Of a stretch of 23,887 nt of DNA, positions 2,482 through 20,023 are shown one piece after another. Every line of letters starts with the position of its first letter. Within the stretch, counting starts at the first letter, position 1. This DNA comes from a virus. The notes beneath the pieces were generated by a model. That model was not told where the DNA came from. It saw only the letters and a list, made by a program, of their open reading frames with translations, and made no database searches. Both the position numbers and the translations under genes were made by a program. The DNA lies in the IMG/VR virus record IMGVR_UViG_3300030060_001229, positions 393-24,279 of that record. One strand, given 5' to 3'.

Positions 2482-2835
2482 ATGGAAGCAATAGAACTGC
2501 TCAAGAACAAATTTGGTGTTCAACAAAAATATTTGTATGAACTAAAAGATGGAGATGAAACAGTTTTAGAAATATTCTGGAATCCATTAACTATTGCAGA
2601 AAGAGAATCCATCGTTGCAAAGTCTGGAGATTCAGGAACTAATGATGACTTTGCTTTAAATCTTATGATTACAAAAGCACTAGATAAAGATGGTCAAAGA
2701 TTATTTCAAGATGGTCATAAAGCATCTTTACGAAGAGAAGTTAATGCAGGGACTTTACAAGATATTCAACTTGCAATGTTAAATTCTGGTAGTGAATACA
2801 AAGTGGAGGAAGCGAAAGCAGATTTAAAAAGCTAG
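2482..2835 (+). CDS. Tail assembly chaperone, G-like
   Basis: 117 residues, ATG at 2482. The protein is small and mostly helical with alternating charge, a W-P-L-T-I-AERE block (FWNPLTIAERESI) and a helical end. This is the usual form of the first tail assembly chaperone, which coats the tape measure before tube polymerisation. It lies directly before a T-like reading frame and the tape measure gene, the order seen in lambda-like tails. The frame ends at TAG 2833-2835 within an A-rich stretch, where the following frame opens (see the T-like gene). Confidence 0.7.
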   Translation: MEAIELLKNKFGVQQKYLYELKDGDETVLEIFWNPLTIAERESIVAKSGDSGTNDDFALNLMITKALDKDGQRLFQDGHKASLRREVNAGTLQDIQLAMLNSGSEYKVEEAKADLKS

Positions 2836-2851
2836 AAACGATTGGTTTTTT

Positions 2852-3016
2852 ATGTTTTTTTTAGCTACAGAGCTAGGAATGACAATAAAAGAACTTACAA
2901 ATAAATTGACTCAGGAAGAATATATAAATTGGCTTGCTTACTATGAGTTAAAGAAAGAATATGAAGATAAGGCTTATGAAGATGCAAAGAATAAATCACG
3001 AGCAAGAAAACGTTAA
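2852..3016 (+). CDS. Tail assembly chaperone, T-like domain
   Basis: A short frame not in step with the G-like gene. From the ATG at 2852 it gives 54 residues with FLATELGMTIKELTNKL, then EEYINWLAYYELKKEYED and a basic end. The LG-x-T-x-x-EL ... E-(Y/F)-x-x-W-x-(A/F)-(Y/F) pattern is typical of the lambda gpT / DUF4035-like domain. The frame is open from 2828, upstream of the ATG, and lies +1 (or -2) relative to the G-like gene. It could be made as a G-T fusion by slippage at A-rich 2826-2830, or separately from 2852, which has no visible Shine-Dalgarno. Separate translation versus fusion cannot be settled here. Confidence 0.65.
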   Translation: MFFLATELGMTIKELTNKLTQEEYINWLAYYELKKEYEDKAYEDAKNKSRARKR

Positions 3017-3050: not shown

Positions 3051-4868
3051 GTGGCCGATTACGGTGTAAATATAAATTTAAGAGTAAAAGGTCAATCTGG
3101 TCTTGATAGATTAAATACGAAAGTAAAACAGCTAACAAAAAGTGTAGATGATATTCGACAAATAGATATAATGAATCCTCGAAATACAGGGGGAAAAGCA
3201 GGACAAAGTGCTCGTAATGAATTAAAAAAATATAGACAAGATATGGAAGCTATTACCAAAACTGTTAATAAATCTAAAATGGCTTTTGGTGAAACTGCCA
3301 ATGCTCAAATGGCAACAGCAGATGCTTTAGAAGAATATACAAACAGTTTAAAAATTGGGACTAAAGAACATAAAAATGCTTTAGCAGCAACAAATAAACA
3401 AAATGCAGCTTTAGGTAGAGAAACAATTCAAATTAATGAAAATACAAATGCACAACTTAAAAATAATAAAGCACAAGCTCAAGGAAATAAACTTGATAAA
3501 TTTAATAACAAAAGCAATAAAGCAGCAGCTACAAGTGGACTAATCTCTGGTGCGTTCCCATTATTATTTGGACAAGGCCCATTGGGTGCTATTGCTGGTT
3601 TTACTGGAGGTTTTGCAGGAACTAAGATTGGTGGTCAGATGGGAGGTTTTGCAGGAGGTCTTGTTGCTACTGGTATTCTTCAACAACTTACTACTGCAAT
3701 TAAAGGATTAAGTGATCTTGGAAAAGCATTAGATCCTAAAACTTTAAATATTGATGCGGTTTCAAAATCTTTTGGATTGTTAGGAACTGATACAGAAAGA
3801 TATTTAAAATTAATTGAACAGACCGAAGGCAAACAAGCTGCTTATAATGCTGCTGTTGAAGAGACAACAAAATTAGTTGGACAAGATGGTGTTGAAGCTC
3901 TACAAGCATTTGCAGACAGTAGTCAAAACCTTACAAATGAAATGAGTAAATTCTTTACAAGGCTTGGTACTGAAATAGCAAAATTATTTAATAGAGGTGC
4001 TAATAATGATTTGAGTAAGCCGATATTAGGTTTTGAAAGGTCAAATTTATTAGCACAAGCAAAAAATGTTACTGATGACGCAGCTATTATGGCAAAAGTA
4101 GCACAAATAGAAAAAGAAAGAAATCGAAATAAACGAAAAGACTTAGAAAATGAACTTGTTTTATTAATGAAGGCAAAAAATATTGAAGATGCAAGAGCAA
4201 GAGCAGCAGAATTAGCAAGATTAGAGTATGAACAAATAACTAAATCTTTAAAAGATCAAATAAATTTTCTTAATAATGCAATTACTTTAGGGCAAGGAGA
4301 AGCTGAAATCATAAGAGAAAAAAATAAACTTATAGAAGCTGCTAGAAAAGCTGGAGTTAAATTTGATGAGGAAGAAATAGAAAGACAAGTGCGATTAAAA
4401 CGGGAATTAGAAAAGTTAAATGTTTTATATGCAGGAATCGCTTCGACAATAGAGACAGGGTTGGTTGATGCAATAGAAGGTGCAATAAATGGAACTAAAA
4501 CTCTTGGAGATGTAGCTCGGAGTGTGTTTAGTCAAATTTCTAGATCACTTATTCAATTTGGTGTTAATTCATTACTAACAAGTATATTTCCTGGTTTTCC
4601 TGGCAGAGCAGCAGGTGGCCCTGTTAGTAAAGGTAAGAGTTATATAGTTGGAGAGCGTGGCCCAGAAATGTTTACACCTGCATCTTCTGGAAACATTATT
4701 CCAAATCACGATTTAGGTGGCGGAACAAGTGTTGTTGTAAATGTAGATGCCTCTGGTTCTGCTGTTGAAGGAGATGAAGCACAGGGAAGAGAGCTTGGTC
4801 GTCTTATATCAGTTGCAGTACAATCTGAATTAATACAGCAACAAAGACCTGGAGGGTTACTTGCATAA
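3051..4868 (+). CDS. Tape measure protein
   Basis: 605 residues with a GTG start. A long N-terminal helical region (about 1-155) is rich in Lys, Asn, Gln and Ala. A Gly-rich hydrophobic stretch follows (about 163-220, with PLLFGQGPLGAIAGFTGGFAG), then a second charged coiled-coil region (about 330-460). The C-terminus carries RAAGGPVSKGKSYIVGERGPEMF, the signature end of many siphovirus tape measures. The protein sets tail length; by the usual rule of about 0.15 nm per residue the tail would be near 90 nm. The gene follows the chaperones and its stop TAATG overlaps the M-like gene. Confidence 0.9.
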   Translation: MADYGVNINLRVKGQSGLDRLNTKVKQLTKSVDDIRQIDIMNPRNTGGKAGQSARNELKKYRQDMEAITKTVNKSKMAFGETANAQMATADALEEYTNSLKIGTKEHKNALAATNKQNAALGRETIQINENTNAQLKNNKAQAQGNKLDKFNNKSNKAAATSGLISGAFPLLFGQGPLGAIAGFTGGFAGTKIGGQMGGFAGGLVATGILQQLTTAIKGLSDLGKALDPKTLNIDAVSKSFGLLGTDTERYLKLIEQTEGKQAAYNAAVEETTKLVGQDGVEALQAFADSSQNLTNEMSKFFTRLGTEIAKLFNRGANNDLSKPILGFERSNLLAQAKNVTDDAAIMAKVAQIEKERNRNKRKDLENELVLLMKAKNIEDARARAAELARLEYEQITKSLKDQINFLNNAITLGQGEAEIIREKNKLIEAARKAGVKFDEEEIERQVRLKRELEKLNVLYAGIASTIETGLVDAIEGAINGTKTLGDVARSVFSQISRSLIQFGVNSLLTSIFPGFPGRAAGGPVSKGKSYIVGERGPEMFTPASSGNIIPNHDLGGGTSVVVNVDASGSAVEGDEAQGRELGRLISVAVQSELIQQQRPGGLLA

Positions 4869-6665: not shown

Positions 6666-7272
6666 AGTAAAACTATATGGAGAATTAGCAAAATTTGTCG
6701 GACATAAAGAGTTCGAGGTAAAAGCTGAAACAGTAGGTAAAGCTGTAAGTTTTTTAGTTTATAACTTTCCAGGTATAGAGTCTTACATGAACCCAAAATA
6801 TTACCAAATCAAAGTAGGCGATAGTGATATTGGAGAGGAAGAAATACATTATCCTGTGGGTAAACAGGACATACATTTTATTCCTGTAATTAGTGGTGCT
6901 GGTAAAGGGTTTGGAAAAATATTATTAGGAGCAGCGTTGATTGGTGTGTCTTTTTTATCTTTTCCTATGGCAGGTGGAGGTATGACATCAGGTTTAGGTG
7001 TTGGATTTGCTAAAGGATTTGCTAACGTTAGTTTAATTTCTAAAGGATTAGCTAGTGTTGGTCTAGCTTTAGTTTTATCAGGAGTTTCTGATTTATTATT
7101 TCCATTACCTGAACTGGAAAATTCAGAAGAAGATCCACAGTTATCCTTTAATTTTAGTGGGGTGCAAAACACATCAAGGGCTGGCACACCTGTACCAATA
7201 GTGTACGGAGAAATATTTACTGGTTCTGTAGTTATTTCAGCAGCAGTAGACACTAATCAGGTAGAAGCATGA
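6655..7272 (+). CDS. Tail assembly protein, lambda I-like
   Basis: 205 residues, ATG at 6655, overlapping the K-like gene by 11 bases. The N-terminal ~75 residues look like a ubiquitin-type beta-grasp fold (KVKLYGELAKFVGHKEFEVKA ... EEEIHYPVG). They are followed by IHFIPVISGAGKG and a Gly/Ala-rich hydrophobic stretch, then a C-terminal NTSRAGTPVPIVYGEIFTGS block. That layout matches lambda gpI, which acts with K and J in tip assembly. The stop overlaps the J-like start by ATGA (7269-7272). Confidence 0.85.
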   Translation: MFRKVKLYGELAKFVGHKEFEVKAETVGKAVSFLVYNFPGIESYMNPKYYQIKVGDSDIGEEEIHYPVGKQDIHFIPVISGAGKGFGKILLGAALIGVSFLSFPMAGGGMTSGLGVGFAKGFANVSLISKGLASVGLALVLSGVSDLLFPLPELENSEEDPQLSFNFSGVQNTSRAGTPVPIVYGEIFTGSVVISAAVDTNQVEA

Positions 7273-10200
7273 CAGACGAACCCAAACTTATTAAAGGATC
7301 TGGAGGTTTCTTTGCTCCCAAACCACCACCAGCACCTTATCGTGCTCCTGATACTTTACATAGTAGAAGTTTTGCTACTATTCAAGATTTAATATCTGAG
7401 GGAGAGATTGAAGGTTTTGCAACAGCCTCAAAAGAAGGTAGAGCAAAGGGAACTGCTGCTTATTTAGAAGCTGCAAAGAAAGATGTATTTTTAGATGACA
7501 CTCCAGTTTTAGATGCTAGTGCAGATAGTACTAATCCACAAGCAGTAGATTTTAATTTTGCAGATGTCGGGTTCGACACTCGTTTTGGTGTGTCTAGTCA
7601 AACAGCATTACCTGGAATACCAGCAGAAACCAGATCACCAACTGCTGTTGCCGTTACTGTGACCACTTCTGCTTCTGTTACTAGACAAATTACAAATACA
7701 GATGTCGATGCAGTTATTGTTACTTTAACTTGGCCTCAAATTCAAGTGGCTGAAGATGATGGAGATGTTAGAGGAGATACTGTTGAATACAAGATACAGG
7801 TTCAATACAATTCTGGTGGATATTCAGATATTATAAGTACTTCTGTTAGTGGTAGAACAGCAGATGCTTATGCCAGAGATCATAGAATAAATATTACAGG
7901 TTCTTTTCCTGTAGATATAAGAGTAGTTAGAATTACGGCAGACAGTACTGACGCATCAAGAATCAATGCTTTTCAATTTACAAGTATTCAAGAAGTAATA
8001 GATAACAGTTCAACTTATGATAATAGTGCTTATGCTGCTCTTCGATTAGATAGTAAACAATTCAATCGCATCCCAAGAAGAGCGTACAGAATAAGAGGAA
8101 TAAAAGTAAGAATACCAGGGGCAGGGGCATCAAGTTCTGGTACACCTAGTGTTGATAATGCAACTGGCAGAATAGTTTATCCAGATGGTTATATTTTTAA
8201 TGGAACTATGGGTGCTGCTGTTTACACCAACTGCCCTGCAATGTGTTTACTTGATCTCCTTACAAATACTCGTTATGGTTTAGGAAATCATATTGTTGAC
8301 AGTAACCTAGATTTATTTAGTTTTGTTCACGCGAGTAAATACGCTAATACATTAGTTTCTGATCTTTTAAATAATCAGGAAGCTAGATTTAGTTGCAATG
8401 TTAATATTCAAAGTCCTAAAGAAGCATTTGCAGCAATAAATGATTTGGCTGGTGTTATGAGATGTATGCCAATATGGTCTGCTGGAGGCATAACTTTATC
8501 GCAGGATGAATCAAAATCAGCTAGTTATTTATTTAATTTAGCCAATGTAGGAGAATCAGGTTTTAGTTACTCAGGAAGTAGTTTAAAACAACGTCATAAT
8601 GTTATTTCTGTTAGCTACTTCAATATGGATTCAAAAGAAATTGATTTTGAACCTGTAGAAGATTCAACATCTATATCAAATGTTGGAAGGACAGTAAAAC
8701 AAGTCAAAGCATTTGCTTGCACTTCACGGGGTCAGGCAATAAGACTTGGGAGAGCAATACTATTTGCTGAACAAAATGAATCAGAAACAGTTACTTTTTC
8801 AACCTCGATAGATTCTGGTGTAGTGGTCAGACCTGGAGCCGTTATTGAGATAAACGATCCAGTGAGGGCAGGAGCTAGAAGAGGTGGTCGTGTCGTAGCA
8901 GCAACTACTACTACCATTACTATTGATGCAGAGACACAAACAACTTTACCGTCTTTAACTGATAGCCCAACAATAAGCGTAATTCTTTCAGATGGATCGG
9001 TAGAATCTAAATCTATATCTAATATCTCAGGTGCAGTTTTAACTGTAAGTTCTGCATTTACATCAGCACCAAATGTTAATTCTCCTTATTTAATATCCAG
9101 TGCAACATTACAAACTCAGTTATTTAGGGTAATTCAAGTAGAAGAACAGGATGATATTAACTATATAATTACAGCTTTGTCTTATGTTGACGGTAAATAT
9201 GATTTTATTGATGATCCAACTGTTTCTTTACCAACAAGAACTATATCGTTACTAAATCAACGTGCACCATCCCCAAGTTTTTTAAATGTTGCTGAAAAAA
9301 CTGTTGTAATTAATAATATTGCTAGAAGTAAACTTATTATTAGCTGGCAAGCTGTAACTGGTGTCACTCAATACCTTATTACTTACAAATATGAAGATAC
9401 TAATTTTATTTCACAAGTAGTATTTAGTACTGATTTTGAACTTTTAGATAGTAAAAAAGGTACTTACACAATTCAAGTACTTTCATATAATCAAGCCTTA
9501 TTTTTATCCAAAAATCCAGCAGAAACTACTTTTAATGCCGTTGGTAAAACTGCTGTACCAGAAAACGTATCTGGATTAACTATTGAACCTGTTAATGAAC
9601 AACTAGCAAGAATAAGATTCAATCAAGCAACTGCTATTGATGTATTACATGGTGGTCGTGTTTATATAAGACATTCAAATTTAACTGGAGGGTCTGCTGT
9701 ATTCCAAGCAGCCCAAGACATCATTCAAGCTGTACCTGGTAACGCAACTGAAGCCTTAGTTCCAGCATTAGCTGGTACATATCTTGTTAAGTTTCAAGAT
9801 GATGGAGGTAGGTTTAGTGATACGGCAGCAAGTATAACTGTATCTCTTGTTGATGTTATTGATTCTATTACCATAAAAACAGATAGAGAAGATACTGACG
9901 GTACACCATTTAATGGAACAAAATCTAACGTAACTTTTAGCACAGATAAAGGTGGATTGATTCTCACCAATCCAGCCTCTAATTTAACTGGTACTTATGA
10001 CTTTGTTGATACTTTAGATTTAGGTGGTACATTTTCTCTTACTTTGAAAAGACATTTTCAAGGTGTTGGATATTATACAGGAGATTTATTTGACAACAGA
10101 ACGGATCTTATAGATACATGGGAAAATTTTGATGGAACTGTTGCTAATGAAGCAAATGCAAGAATTTCTGTACGCACCACGACTGATGATCCTAGTAGTT

Positions 10201-10616
10201 CGCCTACATATACAGATTTCAACGATTTTGCTAATGGAGTGTTTAAAGGTAGAGGATTTCAGTTCAGAGTTACTTTAGAAACGGTTGACTCAGCACAAAA
10301 TATGAATCTTCAACAAGCAGGGTACACAGCATCAATGCCATCAAGAGTTGAACAATCTGCTGTTATAGCTTCTGGAGCAGGAGCAAAAGCAGTCACATTT
10401 GCAGCACCATTTTTCGTTGGAACGTCTGCATTAGGAAACTTAAATAGTTTTTTACCTTCTGTTAATATCTCTCCACAAAATATGGCAACAGGAGATTACT
10501 TTGTCTTAAGTGGTATATCTGGAACTGGCTTCACAGTTCATTTTAAAAACTCAAGTAATGCTAGTATTGATAGAAATTTTACATACAGTGCTGCTGGTTT
10601 TGGTAAAGGAGGTTAA
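7269..10616 (+). CDS. Tail tip / host attachment protein, lambda J-like
   Basis: 1115 residues. The N-terminal part carries APDTLHSRSFATIQDLISEGEIEGF, KDVFLDDTPV and, near residue 270, RIPRRAYRIRGIKVRIP; the middle has NTRYGLGNHI and DLAGVMRCMPIWSAGGI. These are the standard blocks of gpJ. Fibronectin-like beta domains follow (for example SKLIISWQAVTGVTQYLITY near 690), and the last ~250 residues are beta-rich and probably the variable receptor-binding part. Length is close to lambda J (about 1130). It closes the tip gene cluster M-L-K-I-J and precedes the fibre genes. The stop overlaps a Shine-Dalgarno-like AAGGAGG. Confidence 0.9.
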   Translation: MTDEPKLIKGSGGFFAPKPPPAPYRAPDTLHSRSFATIQDLISEGEIEGFATASKEGRAKGTAAYLEAAKKDVFLDDTPVLDASADSTNPQAVDFNFADVGFDTRFGVSSQTALPGIPAETRSPTAVAVTVTTSASVTRQITNTDVDAVIVTLTWPQIQVAEDDGDVRGDTVEYKIQVQYNSGGYSDIISTSVSGRTADAYARDHRINITGSFPVDIRVVRITADSTDASRINAFQFTSIQEVIDNSSTYDNSAYAALRLDSKQFNRIPRRAYRIRGIKVRIPGAGASSSGTPSVDNATGRIVYPDGYIFNGTMGAAVYTNCPAMCLLDLLTNTRYGLGNHIVDSNLDLFSFVHASKYANTLVSDLLNNQEARFSCNVNIQSPKEAFAAINDLAGVMRCMPIWSAGGITLSQDESKSASYLFNLANVGESGFSYSGSSLKQRHNVISVSYFNMDSKEIDFEPVEDSTSISNVGRTVKQVKAFACTSRGQAIRLGRAILFAEQNESETVTFSTSIDSGVVVRPGAVIEINDPVRAGARRGGRVVAATTTTITIDAETQTTLPSLTDSPTISVILSDGSVESKSISNISGAVLTVSSAFTSAPNVNSPYLISSATLQTQLFRVIQVEEQDDINYIITALSYVDGKYDFIDDPTVSLPTRTISLLNQRAPSPSFLNVAEKTVVINNIARSKLIISWQAVTGVTQYLITYKYEDTNFISQVVFSTDFELLDSKKGTYTIQVLSYNQALFLSKNPAETTFNAVGKTAVPENVSGLTIEPVNEQLARIRFNQATAIDVLHGGRVYIRHSNLTGGSAVFQAAQDIIQAVPGNATEALVPALAGTYLVKFQDDGGRFSDTAASITVSLVDVIDSITIKTDREDTDGTPFNGTKSNVTFSTDKGGLILTNPASNLTGTYDFVDTLDLGGTFSLTLKRHFQGVGYYTGDLFDNRTDLIDTWENFDGTVANEANARISVRTTTDDPSSSPTYTDFNDFANGVFKGRGFQFRVTLETVDSAQNMNLQQAGYTASMPSRVEQSAVIASGAGAKAVTFAAPFFVGTSALGNLNSFLPSVNISPQNMATGDYFVLSGISGTGFTVHFKNSSNASIDRNFTYSAAGFGKGG

Positions 10617-13798: not shown

Positions 13799-14914
13799 AT
13801 GTCGAACCAAATAAGACTTAAAAGAGCAAGTGGAAGCGATCCAAGTGCAAGTGATTTAGTAACAGGTGAAGTAGCTGTAAGAACCGATAATGGGAAATTA
13901 TTTACAAAGAAAGATGATGGAAGTGTAGCTGAAATATCAGGCGGTGGAAGTGCTGGTCCAACTGGTCCGACAGGACCGACAGGACCCACAGGACCGACAG
14001 GACCGCAAGGCCCAGCAGGTGATGACGGAAGCACTGGGCCAACAGGACCGCAAGGACCTCAAGGCAGTCAAGGCTCAACAGGACCAACAGGACCAACAGG
14101 ACCTACAGGTCCGTCTGGAACAGGACCTACAGGCCCACCCGGACCCACTGGACCTACTGGACCATCTGGCACAGGACCCACAGGACCGCCCGGTCCTACA
14201 GGACCTTCGGGAGGAACCGGACCAACCGGACCAACTGGACCAACCGGACCAACCGGATCGACTAACAATAATGCAAGTTTAATTTCATCAGGAACTTTAG
14301 CCAATGCAAGATTACCTTCAACAATAGATGTTTCAACACTAGAAGCTGTAAACTTTCATGATTCCGCTGCCTCTGCTGGAACATTAAATAGTGCTGGCTG
14401 GTCTGCATATCGAAGCGGTAGTGGATTTGAAGCGATAACTATTGTTAAAAGTAGTAGTGGTTATGGAACAGCTTTGTTTATCAAAAGATTAACCAGTTGT
14501 GGCACAGGACATTTAATAACATTTCATTATGGAAGCACTGCTGTAGGAACTATTACTACTGATGGCAGTACATTTTCATTGCATCCTAGTAGTGATTATA
14601 GATTAAAACAAGATGTATCAAATATCACTGATGCAACAACAAAACTAAAGGCATTAAGACCAGTAAATTATAGATGGAAAAGTAATCCGGATCTTGGTTA
14701 TGATACTGGTTTTATCGCACATGAGGTTCAAGAAACAGGTTATTTTAATCGACAAGTTACTGGCGTAAAAGATGGAATGAAAAACAAAGATGACAATCCT
14801 GAAGAACAAGAAGAAGATCTTCAAGGTGTAGATTATAGTAAATTCACTCCAATGCTTGTTGCTGCATTTAAAGAATTAGAAGCTAGAGTCACAGCACTTG
14901 AAGGAGGTAGTTGA
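13799..14914 (+). CDS. Collagen-like tail fibre with S74 chaperone domain
   Basis: 371 residues, with a strong Shine-Dalgarno AAGGAGG at 13785-13791, seven bases before the ATG. Residues 1-50 resemble the start of the previous fibre. Residues 53-153 are collagen-like Gly-X-Y triplets, mostly GPT, with three register breaks (twice SGTG, once SGGT). A short beta region follows. Ser264-Ser265-Asp266 opens the S74 chaperone domain ([13 protein letters not shown]), and the end ([15 protein letters not shown]) is a coiled coil. The design predicts a thin, stiff trimeric fibre folded by its self-cleaving chaperone. The stop TGA overlaps the TTG start of the oxygenase gene. Confidence 0.88.
13955..14257 (+). 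repeat. Collagen-like GPT-repeat DNA
   Basis: This stretch encodes about 100 residues of Gly-X-Y triplets, built largely from variants of GGACCNACN. It is far more GC-rich than the rest of the window and creates long but meaningless frames on the other strand. Proline is mainly at X; GPP triplets with proline at Y occur at two places. Confidence 0.92.
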
Positions 14915-15516
14915 AAGAATTTATACAGGAAATAAAAGTTCTTGATGATAAAGACTTAAAAATTATCAATGACTATATAGATACTCTTGATTTTGCAGTT
15001 AATACTGTATTTAATACAAACGGAACTGTAAGAGAAGATACCAGCATCAGATCAAGCACTGGAACGGCAATGGATGAAAATGACGTTGCCACAAAACTAT
15101 TACATGAAAACATAAATACTGCTTTAATAAAATACAAAAATAGACTGTTTAATTATGATCTTGTTTTAGACTGTTATCCTGTTGTAGGTGCAAAAAATAC
15201 AAGTTCACATAGAGAAGAGATACAAGTTTTACAATACACAGAAGATCAAAAATATAACTGGCACTATGATGCTTGCCCCGACCCAAATAGTAAATTTTAT
15301 CATCGTCAGATTTCTCTTGTTTTGTATTTGAAAGATGACTTTGAGGGAGGAGCTACTAAATTTAAAATGCTTCCGCACCATGAATACAGACCAAAGGCAG
15401 GGTACGGATTATTCTTTCCGTCAAACTGGTGTTTTACACATTGCTCTACACCTTTAGAGTCAGGTGAAAAAAGAGTAGCGGTTACTTGGTATTACTGTAT
15501 GGATAATTTAAATTAA
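14911..15516 (+). CDS. 2-oxoglutarate/Fe(II) oxygenase, prolyl 4-hydroxylase-like
   Basis: 201 residues from a TTG start at 14911 that overlaps the collagen-like fibre stop (TTGA). AAGGAGG (14901-14907) lies just upstream, and no ATG occurs before residue 54, too late for the fold. The double-stranded beta-helix signature is complete: His118-x-Asp120 (NWHYDA), a strand ISLVLYL, GGATKF, then distal His177 (CFTHCS) and Arg188 for 2-oxoglutarate (EKRVAVTW). Family members hydroxylate proline or lysine in proteins, using O2 and 2-oxoglutarate. Being translationally coupled to a collagen-like gene, its likely substrate is that fibre; this is inference. Confidence 0.85.
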
Positions 15517-15547: not shown

Positions 15548-15718
15548 ATGGCTCGTAAAACAATAGAACAACTTCAGCAAGAACTTAAGGAACTACAAAA
15601 AAATTATGATCAAGCTGTTCAGGTACAAAAAAATTGTCAAGATAGAGCTATTGCTATTGATGCAATATTAAAAGATAGAGCAGAGGAAGAAACTGAAAAA
15701 AAGTCTATTGCGAAATAA
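15548..15718 (+). CDS. Small coiled-coil protein, possible N-terminal half of a frameshift product
   Basis: 56 residues. Residues 1-25 are a strong heptad helix (TIEQLQQELKELQKNYDQAV), followed by a second charged helix rich in Glu/Lys. The frame ends at TAA 15716-15718. Thirteen bases before the stop lies A AAA AAG (15697-15703), the slippery heptamer used in dnaX, with GAGGA (15683-15687) nine bases upstream acting like the dnaX internal Shine-Dalgarno. The -1 frame leads straight into a zinc ribbon without its own start codon. Two products are therefore predicted: 56 residues, and a 94-residue fusion (52 + 42). Confidence 0.7.
   Translation: MARKTIEQLQQELKELQKNYDQAVQVQKNCQDRAIAIDAILKDRAEEETEKKSIAK
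15683..15703 (+). other. Candidate -1 ribosomal frameshift site
   Basis: A Shine-Dalgarno-like GAGGA (15683-15687), a nine-base spacer and the heptamer A AAA AAG (15697-15703) in the frame of the upstream gene. A -1 stop (TGA, 15694-15696) lies immediately before, so the -1 frame is only reachable by slipping here. A small stem (GCAG 15726-15729 with CTGC 15738-15741) lies 22 bases downstream, farther than usual for a stimulator. Confidence 0.6.
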
Positions 15719-15831
15719 TAGAAAAGCAGTGTAGATGCTGCGGTAAAATATTTTCTACCACAGAACAAAGAAGAAAATATTGTTCTAATGCCTGTAAAAC
15801 TAGATATTATCGCAGAAAAAAAGCTAGTTAG
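15697..15831 (+). CDS. Zinc-ribbon reading frame without a start codon (-1 frame)
   Basis: The frame opens after TGA 15694-15696 and runs to TAG 15829-15831. It contains CRCCGKIFSTTEQRRKYCSNACKTRYYRRKK: a CxxCGK...YCSxxCK zinc ribbon with a very basic end, typical of small nucleic-acid-binding proteins. No ATG, GTG or TTG lies in frame before the cysteines; the first codons are AAA AAA GTC TAT TGC. The best reading is that it forms the C-terminal half of the coiled-coil protein by -1 slippage. A one-base indel in the seven-A run, or an unusual ATA start at 15715 or 15718, would be alternatives. Confidence 0.65.
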   Translation, partial: KKVYCEIIEKQCRCCGKIFSTTEQRRKYCSNACKTRYYRRKKAS

Positions 15832-15953: not shown

Positions 15954-16193
15954 ATGTTTCAAAAAATTGCTAATGTTTTAAGCATTATTTCTTTCTTAAT
16001 GGTAACTTCTGTTATTGGTGGAGGGTACTTTGGTTATAAGTATGTAACTTCAGAGAATTTCAAGAGCCGTTTGATGAAAGAAGTCATGGGTAATGTTTCT
16101 GGACTTATGCCTAAGGTATTAGATCAAGGCTTACCAAAAATGACAGGTCCATCTGTTGGTGTGCCAAAAGGAAAAGATTGGACTAAATTTTAA
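15954..16193 (+). CDS. Small single-span membrane protein
   Basis: 79 residues from the ATG at 15954; in-frame GTG (15900) and ATG (15909) upstream would add 18 or 15 residues. The later ATG gives the more usual form, a short amphipathic start (FQKIANVL) leading into one membrane span (SIISFLMVTSVIGGGYFGYKYV). After it come a basic helix (FKSRLMKEVMG) and a Pro/Gly-rich end (PKMTGPSVGVPKG). From memory it resembles small proteins seen in marine picocyanobacterial phages, of unknown role. The next ATG starts one base after the stop. Confidence 0.65.
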   Translation: MFQKIANVLSIISFLMVTSVIGGGYFGYKYVTSENFKSRLMKEVMGNVSGLMPKVLDQGLPKMTGPSVGVPKGKDWTKF

Positions 16194-17019: not shown

Positions 17020-17181
17020 ATGGATTGTTACTGGTGTGGTACAGAATTAATAATAGGTGGTGACATTGACATTGAAGATGGGATGGTTGGTTATCCTGAG
17101 TTTTCGGTGATGACTAACTTATCTTGTCCTAAATGCTCATCGGAAGTAGAGGTATTAAAGAAGAGAGATGCCTACGATTAA
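17020..17181 (+). CDS. Small zinc-ribbon protein
   Basis: 53 residues starting at the ATG two bases after the previous stop. CYWCG (residues 3-7) and CPKC (residues 36-39) make a CxxC...CxxC zinc ribbon, and the part between is acidic. Small zinc ribbons of this form are common in cyanophages. It overlaps the next gene by 14 bases, so the two are probably co-translated. Function unknown. Confidence 0.7.
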   Translation: MDCYWCGTELIIGGDIDIEDGMVGYPEFSVMTNLSCPKCSSEVEVLKKRDAYD

Positions 17182-19074: not shown

Positions 19075-19601
19075 TAATCCAAGCCAAGAGTAATACTGGT
19101 TTGAAGAGTAGCTGTTGTACCAGCACCCATATCAGCCAAGTTAACAGTGAACGCACCACCACTATCCATTGTGATTGCAACAGAACCTGGATCGCCTCCA
19201 GCTATAACCGTATTTTTGCCCAAAAGAGGTAAGGATGGAACAGCACCATTTGTTACTGTGGCAGATAGTAAACTTGGAACGGCATCTGCTGCGATATAGG
19301 ATTCTGATACAGAGAACGCATCGCCTGTGTTCACAATATTGAAGCTAGTATCATAATCAATAGTAGGAACACCACTAGCAATACCATTGTCAGCTAAATC
19401 AAGAGAACCAATTTGACCAGCTACTGTATTTGCTTTAGGAGTTACGTTTGTACCAGCTACACTAATAGATGCTGCAATCCTTTCTGAAGTTGCACTAGCA
19501 CCCAGAGTAGACACTGAAGCTACTGATTGGATCGAATGAGTGATGTCTGCAAAACTAGCTGTTGGAAATGCTAGTAAAAGCAAGGGTAAAAACTTTTTCA
19601 T
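19074..19601 (-). CDS. Exported Ala/Ser/Thr-rich protein
   Basis: 175 residues with a textbook signal peptide (KKFLPLLLLAFPTASFA, cleavage after SFA). The mature chain is small-residue-rich with many Val/Thr/Ser strands (SVASVSTLGASATSERIAAS, GAFTVNLADMGAGTTATLQT) and no cysteine, a composition typical of extracellular beta-structured proteins. ATGA overlap with the upstream membrane protein gene (19598-19601) and one-base overlap with the downstream gene. Function unknown; it may form a complex with its exported neighbours. Confidence 0.78.
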   Translation of the reverse strand: MKKFLPLLLLAFPTASFADITHSIQSVASVSTLGASATSERIAASISVAGTNVTPKANTVAGQIGSLDLADNGIASGVPTIDYDTSFNIVNTGDAFSVSESYIAADAVPSLLSATVTNGAVPSLPLLGKNTVIAGGDPGSVAITMDSGGAFTVNLADMGAGTTATLQTSITLGLD

Positions 19602-20023
19602 TTCTTAGATGAATTAGGGTCAACTTTGATAACGTCAGGTTTTGTTGTGACGATCTCAAGGGGCTGTTTTATTATTATAGTTTGAACGCTACCATTGGAG
19701 TTACCGATTGTACCGTTTTCACCATCTTTCTTTTTTTTCTTAGATCCTTGTGCTGCGTTAACAGACACACCCATCCCGGCAAGAATGTTTCCCAAAAGCC
19801 CGGCAGCAAACGTGCTATCGACACGAGGTTGGTCTGGTATATCTAAACCAAATAATCTGTTAGGGAGTTTTATGTATCCAAGAGATAAGACTACTAAGCA
19901 CCAAGCAAGAATAAAACCTTGAGCAACAGTAGAAATTAAAAACGTAATTTTTTCTTGATAATCAGGTTTGTCATCTTCTGCTGGAATAACCTGTGAAGGA
20001 GTATTTTTCTTTTCTTCTGCCAT
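19598..20023 (-). CDS. Membrane protein, first gene of the exported-protein operon
   Basis: 141 residues. A hydrophilic N-terminus (about 25 residues) is followed by a membrane span (ITFLISTVAQGFILAWCLVVLSLGYI) and a second hydrophobic stretch (FAAGLLGNILAGMGVSVNAA). Then come a Lys5 run, Gly/Asn-rich linker and a Val/Ile/Lys tail. It has no cleavable signal. It leads a run of four overlapping genes and could anchor or help assemble the three exported products. From memory it resembles small membrane proteins of picocyanobacterial phages; role unknown. Confidence 0.72.
   Translation of the reverse strand: MAEEKKNTPSQVIPAEDDKPDYQEKITFLISTVAQGFILAWCLVVLSLGYIKLPNRLFGLDIPDQPRVDSTFAAGLLGNILAGMGVSVNAAQGSKKKKKDGENGTIGNSNGSVQTIIIKQPLEIVTTKPDVIKVDPNSSKK

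Follow-up and report, generated by a model that had tools for sequence, protein, structure and literature searches.

The stretch of DNA analyzed here (the window; 23,887 nucleotides, positions 393–24279 of the 29,405-base virus record IMGVR_UViG_3300030060_001229) carries two short, overlapping reading frames on its plus strand. The upstream (0-frame) ORF, at 15548–15718, starts with ATG and encodes a 56-aa coiled-coil protein of the phrog_20003 family, the predicted short isoform. Near its end lie a Shine-Dalgarno-like GAGGA (15683–15687) and, nine bases further on, a slippery heptamer, A_AAA_AAG (15697–15703), in the 0-frame phase: the Glu codon GAA (15695–15697) is followed by AAA and AAG, and the A run has seven bases (15696–15702). 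The 0-frame stop, TAA (15716–15718), follows 12 nt 3' of the heptamer. The second frame (15697–15831), which is −1 relative to the coiled-coil ORF, opens right after a TGA (15694–15696), runs for 44 codons from stop to stop with no ATG, GTG or TTG, and encodes a four-Cys, treble-clef-like putative zinc finger with a basic tail (Cys codons at 15730, 15739, 15781 and 15793). A sequence-only reading had described this ORF, heptamer, GAGGA and start-less −1 frame, and its letters and coordinates proved correct. A −1 shift at the heptamer would give a 94-aa fusion of 52 + 42 residues, join(15548..15703,15703..15831), spanning 15548–15831. The other listed plus-strand ORFs of the window have no in-phase A_AAA_AAG in 5698 codon positions, and the listed minus-strand ORFs have one in 1605, this sole other case lying in 19598–20023.

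The window encodes a lambda-like siphophage tail, with a tape measure at 3051–4868 and a J-like central fibre at 7269–10616 that is closest, among isolates, to those of MED4-117 and MED4-184/P-HS2 (41% identity); the phage is related to the Prochlorococcus phages MED4-117 and P-HS2. Fibre proteins with collagen and S74 chaperone domains extend to 14914, and the immediate upstream neighbour of the coiled-coil ORF, a plus-strand 2OG-Fe(II) oxygenase gene (14911–15516; PF13640, E 2.8e-15), ends the tail-fibre cassette here. Downstream, the plus-strand gene at 15954–16193 belongs to F2/phrog_568, a conserved family that bounds the slot on its right, judged by profile and by the maps of relatives. 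All genomes examined have the coiled-coil gene between variable tail-fibre genes and the conserved F2–F3 pair. Counted by eye, fibre family F1 lies upstream in 30 of the 33 family-1 representatives and F2 downstream in 26 of the 29 that have downstream sequence, and MK-type loci occupy the same slot as family 1. Frequent immediate upstream neighbours are Phage_tail_APC (PF16778, E 5e-14), a small F7 protein or a 2OG-Fe(II) oxygenase. At 13799–15516 of the window, a collagen-repeat fibre with an S74 chaperone end is directly followed by the oxygenase; such oxygenases adjoin the slot in several relatives, and prolyl hydroxylation of the fibre may be worth a thought.

Relatives were collected by scans of a viral collection and reduced to 129 distinct marine viral regions from many separate metagenome assemblies, all of them metagenomic contigs and none in an isolate. 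We counted distinct sequences and, since related sequences are not independent, also clusters (63 at 90% identity, 22 at 80% and 10 at 70%). To enter the set, a region needed an upstream ORF of ≥35 codons starting with ATG, a finger frame in −1 and an in-phase heptamer; left out, from 140 distinct combinations, were twelve finger-only genes, one in-frame fusion (L099), and L100, L121 and L312, which have no callable ATG ORF (L121 starts at a contig end, and L100 and L312 do show the −1 heptamer arrangement). All 129 regions carry A_AAA_AAG or A_AAA_AAA, the heptamer being an inclusion criterion of that set. Counted without a heptamer filter, in-phase A_AAA_AA[A/G] was found in 6/6 first relatives, in 71/71 distinct family-1 regions, and in all 132 distinct N-terminal ORFs with a −1 finger when both families are taken together. 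The slippery site and the −1 relation thus persist while their surroundings drift, as the sequence-only reading had expected of homologues, across 129 distinct regions whose N-terminal proteins are down to 11–18% identical. An indel that entered the A run during sequencing or assembly and split one continuous gene is refuted by these homologues: homopolymers are error-prone, but the same −1 relation recurs in 129 distinct regions from many separate assemblies, among them regions with six-A runs and with stop distances differing by three bases, and we give an artifact of this kind a negligible probability.

The heptamer is more uniform than the amino acids it encodes would demand. The codon preceding its two lysines is GAA in 79 of the 129 regions, GTA in 21, AAA in 8, ATA in 7, CAA and GCA in 5 each, and ACA and TCA in 2 each, so that eight different amino acids are represented and the wobble base is A in every case. 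The second Lys codon is AAG in 126/129 regions and 60/63 clusters, and in the majority of members in 21 of the 22 clusters at 80%, against a background of ~15% (48.0/319.7 weighted Lys codons elsewhere in the same ORFs); AAG also makes up 54 of the 310 Lys codons in the window's genes. Among N-terminal ORFs of both families that lack the finger and have room for it downstream (ORFs ending <30 bases from a contig end being skipped), the heptamer is present in 1 of 30; in those with too little room, counted apart, it is present in 0 of 5. The eight residues that always end in xxA, the excess of AAG and the absence of the heptamer from 29 of 30 finger-less ORFs indicate, on comparative grounds, that selection is acting on the heptamer itself, beyond the needs of the protein. 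The finger frame is under protein-level constraint: pN/pS is 0.46 there, whereas reading this DNA in the two alternative frames gives 1.36 and 0.95 (given the high pS, the values serve as contrasts, not as rates).

The proteins in front of the finger are small and helical but diverse. The window short form matches phrog_20003 (E 2.4e-14, residues 1–52 of 60) and is modelled by AlphaFold2 as a single helix (6–55, mean pLDDT 90.9), with a best heptad-register score equalled by 4 of 1000 shuffles. Compared with shuffles, heptad periodicity is clear in the window and in L280 and L351 (two further divergent helices with a finger), marginal in L043 and L061, and not above shuffles in L302, L343 and L347, so that the term coiled coil is solid for part of the set only. 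Of a second N-terminal type, MKxxIEKQILEW..., 11 of 14 members match phrog_580 (best E 1.2e-4), to which the type is related. An hhalign comparison (A6 versus A3) did not connect it with the phrog_20003 type (probability 0.1); the two may be distant relatives, both being small helical proteins at the same slot. A search of solved structures with the helix gave nothing better than E 0.19. Within the MKxxIEKQ group, L347, L339 and L370 have fourteen extra helix residues (two heptads) relative to the rest.

The sequence-only reading was silent on one feature of the locus, namely that frameshift signal and finger are exchanged together, as a cassette, while the tail-fibre slot stays fixed. The finger is present both behind the phrog_20003 helix and behind the phrog_580-related MKxxIEKQ type, and pairs with finger DNA 86–91% identical have N-terminal proteins only 11–18% identical. 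In L343 and L351, 21 of 60 bases match before the heptamer, 7 of 7 within it and 84 of 93 after it: the exchange breakpoint falls at the heptamer, with finger DNA ~90% identical behind unrelated N-termini. A like exchange in L005 and L055 has its breakpoint farther upstream, 14 of 15 bases matching just before the heptamer. From these alignments, heptamer and finger appear to behave as an exchangeable cassette, acquired by two or more types of helical protein that are unrelated in sequence. We lean, with some reserve, toward a broader statement: A_AAA_AAG plus finger would be a self-contained, recombination-mobile recoding cassette that lets the small helical gene in front of it yield two proteins in a controlled ratio, one with a zinc-binding end and one lacking it, and marine tail-fibre loci would exchange helix, cassette or both while phages swap their receptor-binding genes.

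Losses and exceptional architectures are also found at the slot. The ORF of the L025 clade ends in LEKALESTSI, matching the last residues of the L006 finger tail (RLEKNKKSTSIQL), which points to deletion of the finger in this clade and loss of the heptamer along with it. Helix-only genes with this ending are L025 1733–1942 and its relatives L026–L040, L048 and L184; the tail also occurs in L346. The one finger-less ORF that retains A_AAA_AAG, L444, holds it inside a longer tail, where by its sequence it looks like a remnant. A finger in frame with the helix, which the sequence-only reading had named as evidence against a frameshift, turned up in one distinct case, L099 (= L261; 1771–2001), where a deletion inside the coiled coil shortened the helix and set the finger in frame, the A run being kept out of phase. 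The other such sign, a finger with its own ATG, is seen in twelve distinct finger-only genes at the same slot, a different architecture in which none has an upstream helical partner. Stand-alone finger genes include L128 2995–3126, L132, L135, L136, L138, L297, L300, L301 and L383, mostly after F14/F10 fibres. The existence of the in-frame fusion and the finger-only genes implies that some phages can do without two isoforms.

The elements around the heptamer recall E. coli dnaX, where A_AAA_AAG has the same phase and a Shine-Dalgarno-like word lies upstream. Most of family 1 has such a word, as does the window; in that family, 81% of 33 clusters use GAG for the Glu codon within GAGG, compared with ~19% in the background (54.8/294.7 cluster-weighted Glu codons, a count that includes the GAGG position itself); taking both families, any Shine-Dalgarno-like word is absent from the scanned stretch in 14.4/63 clusters. 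In contrast to dnaX, with its 3' stem-loop, no conserved 3' structure was detected here. Single-sequence folding gave a mean z of −1.0 over 32 representatives, five of which (the window, L006, L061, L078 and L122) fell below −2.5, and no consensus stem rose above shuffled controls in three groups of 19, 22 and 16 (z −1.46, 0.18 and 0.1). The window itself has a predicted stem (z −2.75) that begins directly 3' of the heptamer. With a stem conserved in neither single-sequence nor consensus folding, we rejected a dnaX-like 3' stem-loop as a general part of the site. A downstream stimulatory structure is not obligatory for all A_AAA_AAG-type sites. The shifted product of E. coli dnaX is the short one, whereas at the finger locus it is longer. 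The dnaX-type frameshift proposed by the sequence-only reading holds for the phase of the heptamer, across 129 homologous regions, and for the upstream GAGGA of the window, and fails for a conserved 3' hairpin and for the relative length of the shifted product. As described in the part of PMC5009743 drawn on here, a 5' Shine-Dalgarno stimulates dnaX −1 shifting, and the dnaX genes of a few other bacteria have a 0-frame stop directly after the slip site. Among the relatives studied here, the 0-frame stop lies 0 to 27 nt after the heptamer, and a TAG or TAA is immediately 3' of it in 29/63 clusters. No tRNA gene was found in the window.

Taken together, the conserved −1 relation, the heptamer, its loss along with the finger, and the exchange of the cassette argue that programmed −1 ribosomal frameshifting at A_AAA_AAG almost certainly operates at these loci. 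On some of their passages through the small coiled-coil gene, ribosomes would move back by one base at A_AAA_AAG, with the upstream GAGG promoting the slip, and would then read a finger domain that cannot be started alone; we infer the slip from sequence comparison. Each phage would thus make two proteins sharing an oligomerising helix, a plain one of 56 aa and a finger-ended one of 94 aa, in proportions that depend on how often the slip occurs, and the cassette of heptamer and finger would have been recombined onto small helical genes, all directly after tail-fibre genes.

Two other routes to the finger were weighed. RNA polymerase could slip on the A run, producing mRNAs minus one A or plus two from which the fusion would be made by normal translation, and runs of seven A (82 of 129 regions) or eight to ten A (10 of 129) would favour this, as would the use of transcriptional slippage by some insertion sequences (PMC5009743, in part). 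However, 37 of the 129 regions have a run of only six, while the efficient bacterial cases described in the same part of that source are runs of 9 A or T; moreover, the conserved phase, the closing G and the xxA codon matter to tRNA re-pairing, not to the polymerase, and the preference of family 1 for GAG at the Shine-Dalgarno position likewise speaks for translation, making slippage by the polymerase very improbable. We regard it as equally improbable that the finger is a separate gene, reached from a non-standard start codon or by re-initiation after the 0-frame stop. The close overlap of that stop with the finger frame does resemble translationally coupled genes, the twelve finger-only genes show that a finger can stand alone at this slot, and a GTG or TTG lies within four codons of the first Cys in 3/129 regions (L323, L359 and L370). 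Yet there is no ATG, GTG or TTG before the first Cys in 126/129, the finger-only relatives all start with ATG, the 0-frame stop varies in position, and separate initiation predicts conservation neither of the heptamer nor of the preceding wobble A. Programmed −1 frameshifting remains our preferred explanation, and the account as a whole (−1 slip, two isoforms and mobile cassette, with a tentatively assigned role at the fibre slot) is in our judgment highly probable on the comparative evidence.

Several known systems share parts of this arrangement. Lambda gpG and gpGT have one binding end in common; as in that pair, a small gene in a lambda-like siphophage would here yield, by −1 frameshifting close to its end, two products with a common N-terminal end, but the proteins are different and the finger locus is found past the fibre genes, some 12.5 kb away from the tape measure. 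A gpG/gpGT tail chaperone was rejected as its identity, since the locus does not stand before the tape measure (3051–4868 versus 15548) and the window has its own G/T-like pair at 2482–3016. That pair, which precedes the tape measure, is likely a G/T-type tail assembly chaperone pair: it matches phrog_20784 and, weakly, the tail chaperone phrog_344, and is followed by a 54-aa ORF matching the tail protein phrog_337. Its two frames, the second being +1/−2 to the first, share no more than AAA AGC TAG, and the window genome may, judging from this arrangement, hold a second, canonical frameshift there. The IS3-family OrfA and OrfAB are a coiled-coil protein without and with an extension gained through a −1 shift; the finger locus differs in having no transposase domain and in not being mobile by itself. 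T4 gp57A, like the helix, is a small protein linked with tail fibres, but no sequence relation was detected by hhalign of the helix against one gp57A sequence (probability 0.2; a distant relation is possible), and we know of no frameshift extension of gp57A. Finally, Ig-like domains are appended by frameshift to various phage proteins (PMC5009743, in the part drawn on here). These too are C-terminal domain cassettes reached by frameshift on different proteins, whereas the finger locus has a putative zinc finger on small helical proteins rather than an Ig domain on capsid or tail subunits, and its heptamer itself appears to travel with the domain.

The finger, as modelled by AlphaFold2 (E8–11, E18–21, H31–43; pLDDT 84.9), is treble-clef-like and putatively zinc-binding. 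Its ligand pattern of CxxC and CxxxC, with a hairpin and then a helix, is that of a treble clef, and C12, C15, C29 and C33 are invariant in 24 aligned members; the zinc ribbon of the sequence-only reading was not borne out by this hairpin-and-helix model and its treble-clef matches. An Ig-like fold was ruled out, since the model combines a beta hairpin and a helix and the four Cys are conserved. The best structural match was an unnamed 43-residue viral protein (E 3.2e-4, TM 0.88), and viral HNH-associated treble clefs were among the best matches. Solved structures gave no decisive match: YacG bound to gyrase was the best likeness (Foldseek prob 0.80, E 1.1; Z 4.1 over 37 residues, in a comparison restricted to listed solved structures that does not exclude families outside that list), FCS fingers also resembled the model, and the sequence profile of the finger retrieved short generic CxxC matches only. 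By sequence, Pfam YacG matched weakly in 7 of 24 members (best E 0.027, below cut-off), NCBIfam PRK01343 reached 13.2 bits against a cut-off of 79, and NinG matched weakly in 10 of 24 (best E 0.0019). Similarity to phrog_1271 (phage HNH endonuclease fingers; E 1.3e-4) was found in a finger that has no catalytic part. As an identity, the YacG gyrase inhibitor was rejected, every score lying under the family cut-off and NinG, DUF2116 and FCS scoring alike. No relative turned up when contigs of bacteria and archaea were scanned, and tblastn of the window finger against isolate phages gave no match at E 0.1; the L343 finger had a sole match among isolate phages, in an HNH-annotated gene of Gordonia phage GAL1 (E 0.07).

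What the two proteins do can be approached through gene position and the basic finger. The place of the gene between the fibre genes and F2–F3 points to a fibre accessory or assembly role, and the basic finger to contact with nucleic acid or a partner. From position, we tentatively propose a two-isoform oligomer serving as a tail-fibre accessory or assembly factor: the plain helix would play this part for the tail-fibre cassette, and mixed oligomers in which finger chains are the minority could, by analogy with lambda gpG/gpGT, link it to nucleic acid or another partner. We infer the oligomeric state, the partner and the role, and the protein may be dimeric and nucleic-acid-binding, as the sequence-only reading labelled it. 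With the same frameshift, the pair might be a nucleic-acid-binding regulator of late or tail-fibre expression rather than an assembly factor; the basic finger and its phrog_1271 and NinG similarities would suit this, but the finger lacks a catalytic part and a position after the fibre genes needs no regulator, which leaves this reading possible but somewhat unlikely. A third reading, which also keeps the frameshift, casts the finger chain as a host-takeover factor (e.g., one that binds gyrase as YacG does), which its partner, the plain chain, would oligomerise or dampen. The YacG–gyrase likeness and the weak Pfam YacG matches favour it, but those scores all fall below family cut-offs and are shared by other treble clefs, and the gene sits among late tail genes, so that we consider it unlikely.

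Small phage genes with frameshifts are already known, as are frameshift-appended C-terminal domains (lambda G/GT and Ig-like domains; PMC5009743), and 2397 of 2476 annotated phage frameshifts in the PRFect training set are tail assembly chaperones (PMC10885494). Our literature search, mostly without subscription papers, returned no frameshift-appended zinc finger, domain-borne heptamer or tail-fibre-slot case, and no description of the finger gene was recognised in it. The locus would give lambda-like marine siphophages a second frameshift gene with wide sampling, in a module other than that of the tail chaperones. Because its frame has no start codon, annotation pipelines miss the finger, and it was not found in any annotated isolate searched. 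With more than a hundred natural variants, among them gains, losses and partner swaps, the locus lends itself to comparison and experiment on three questions: the spread of a recoding signal, the control of its rate where no hairpin is evident, and the need of a fibre locus for two forms of one protein. Elsewhere in the window, a 53-aa protein with two CxxC pairs (17020–17181) is a second small zinc-binding candidate.
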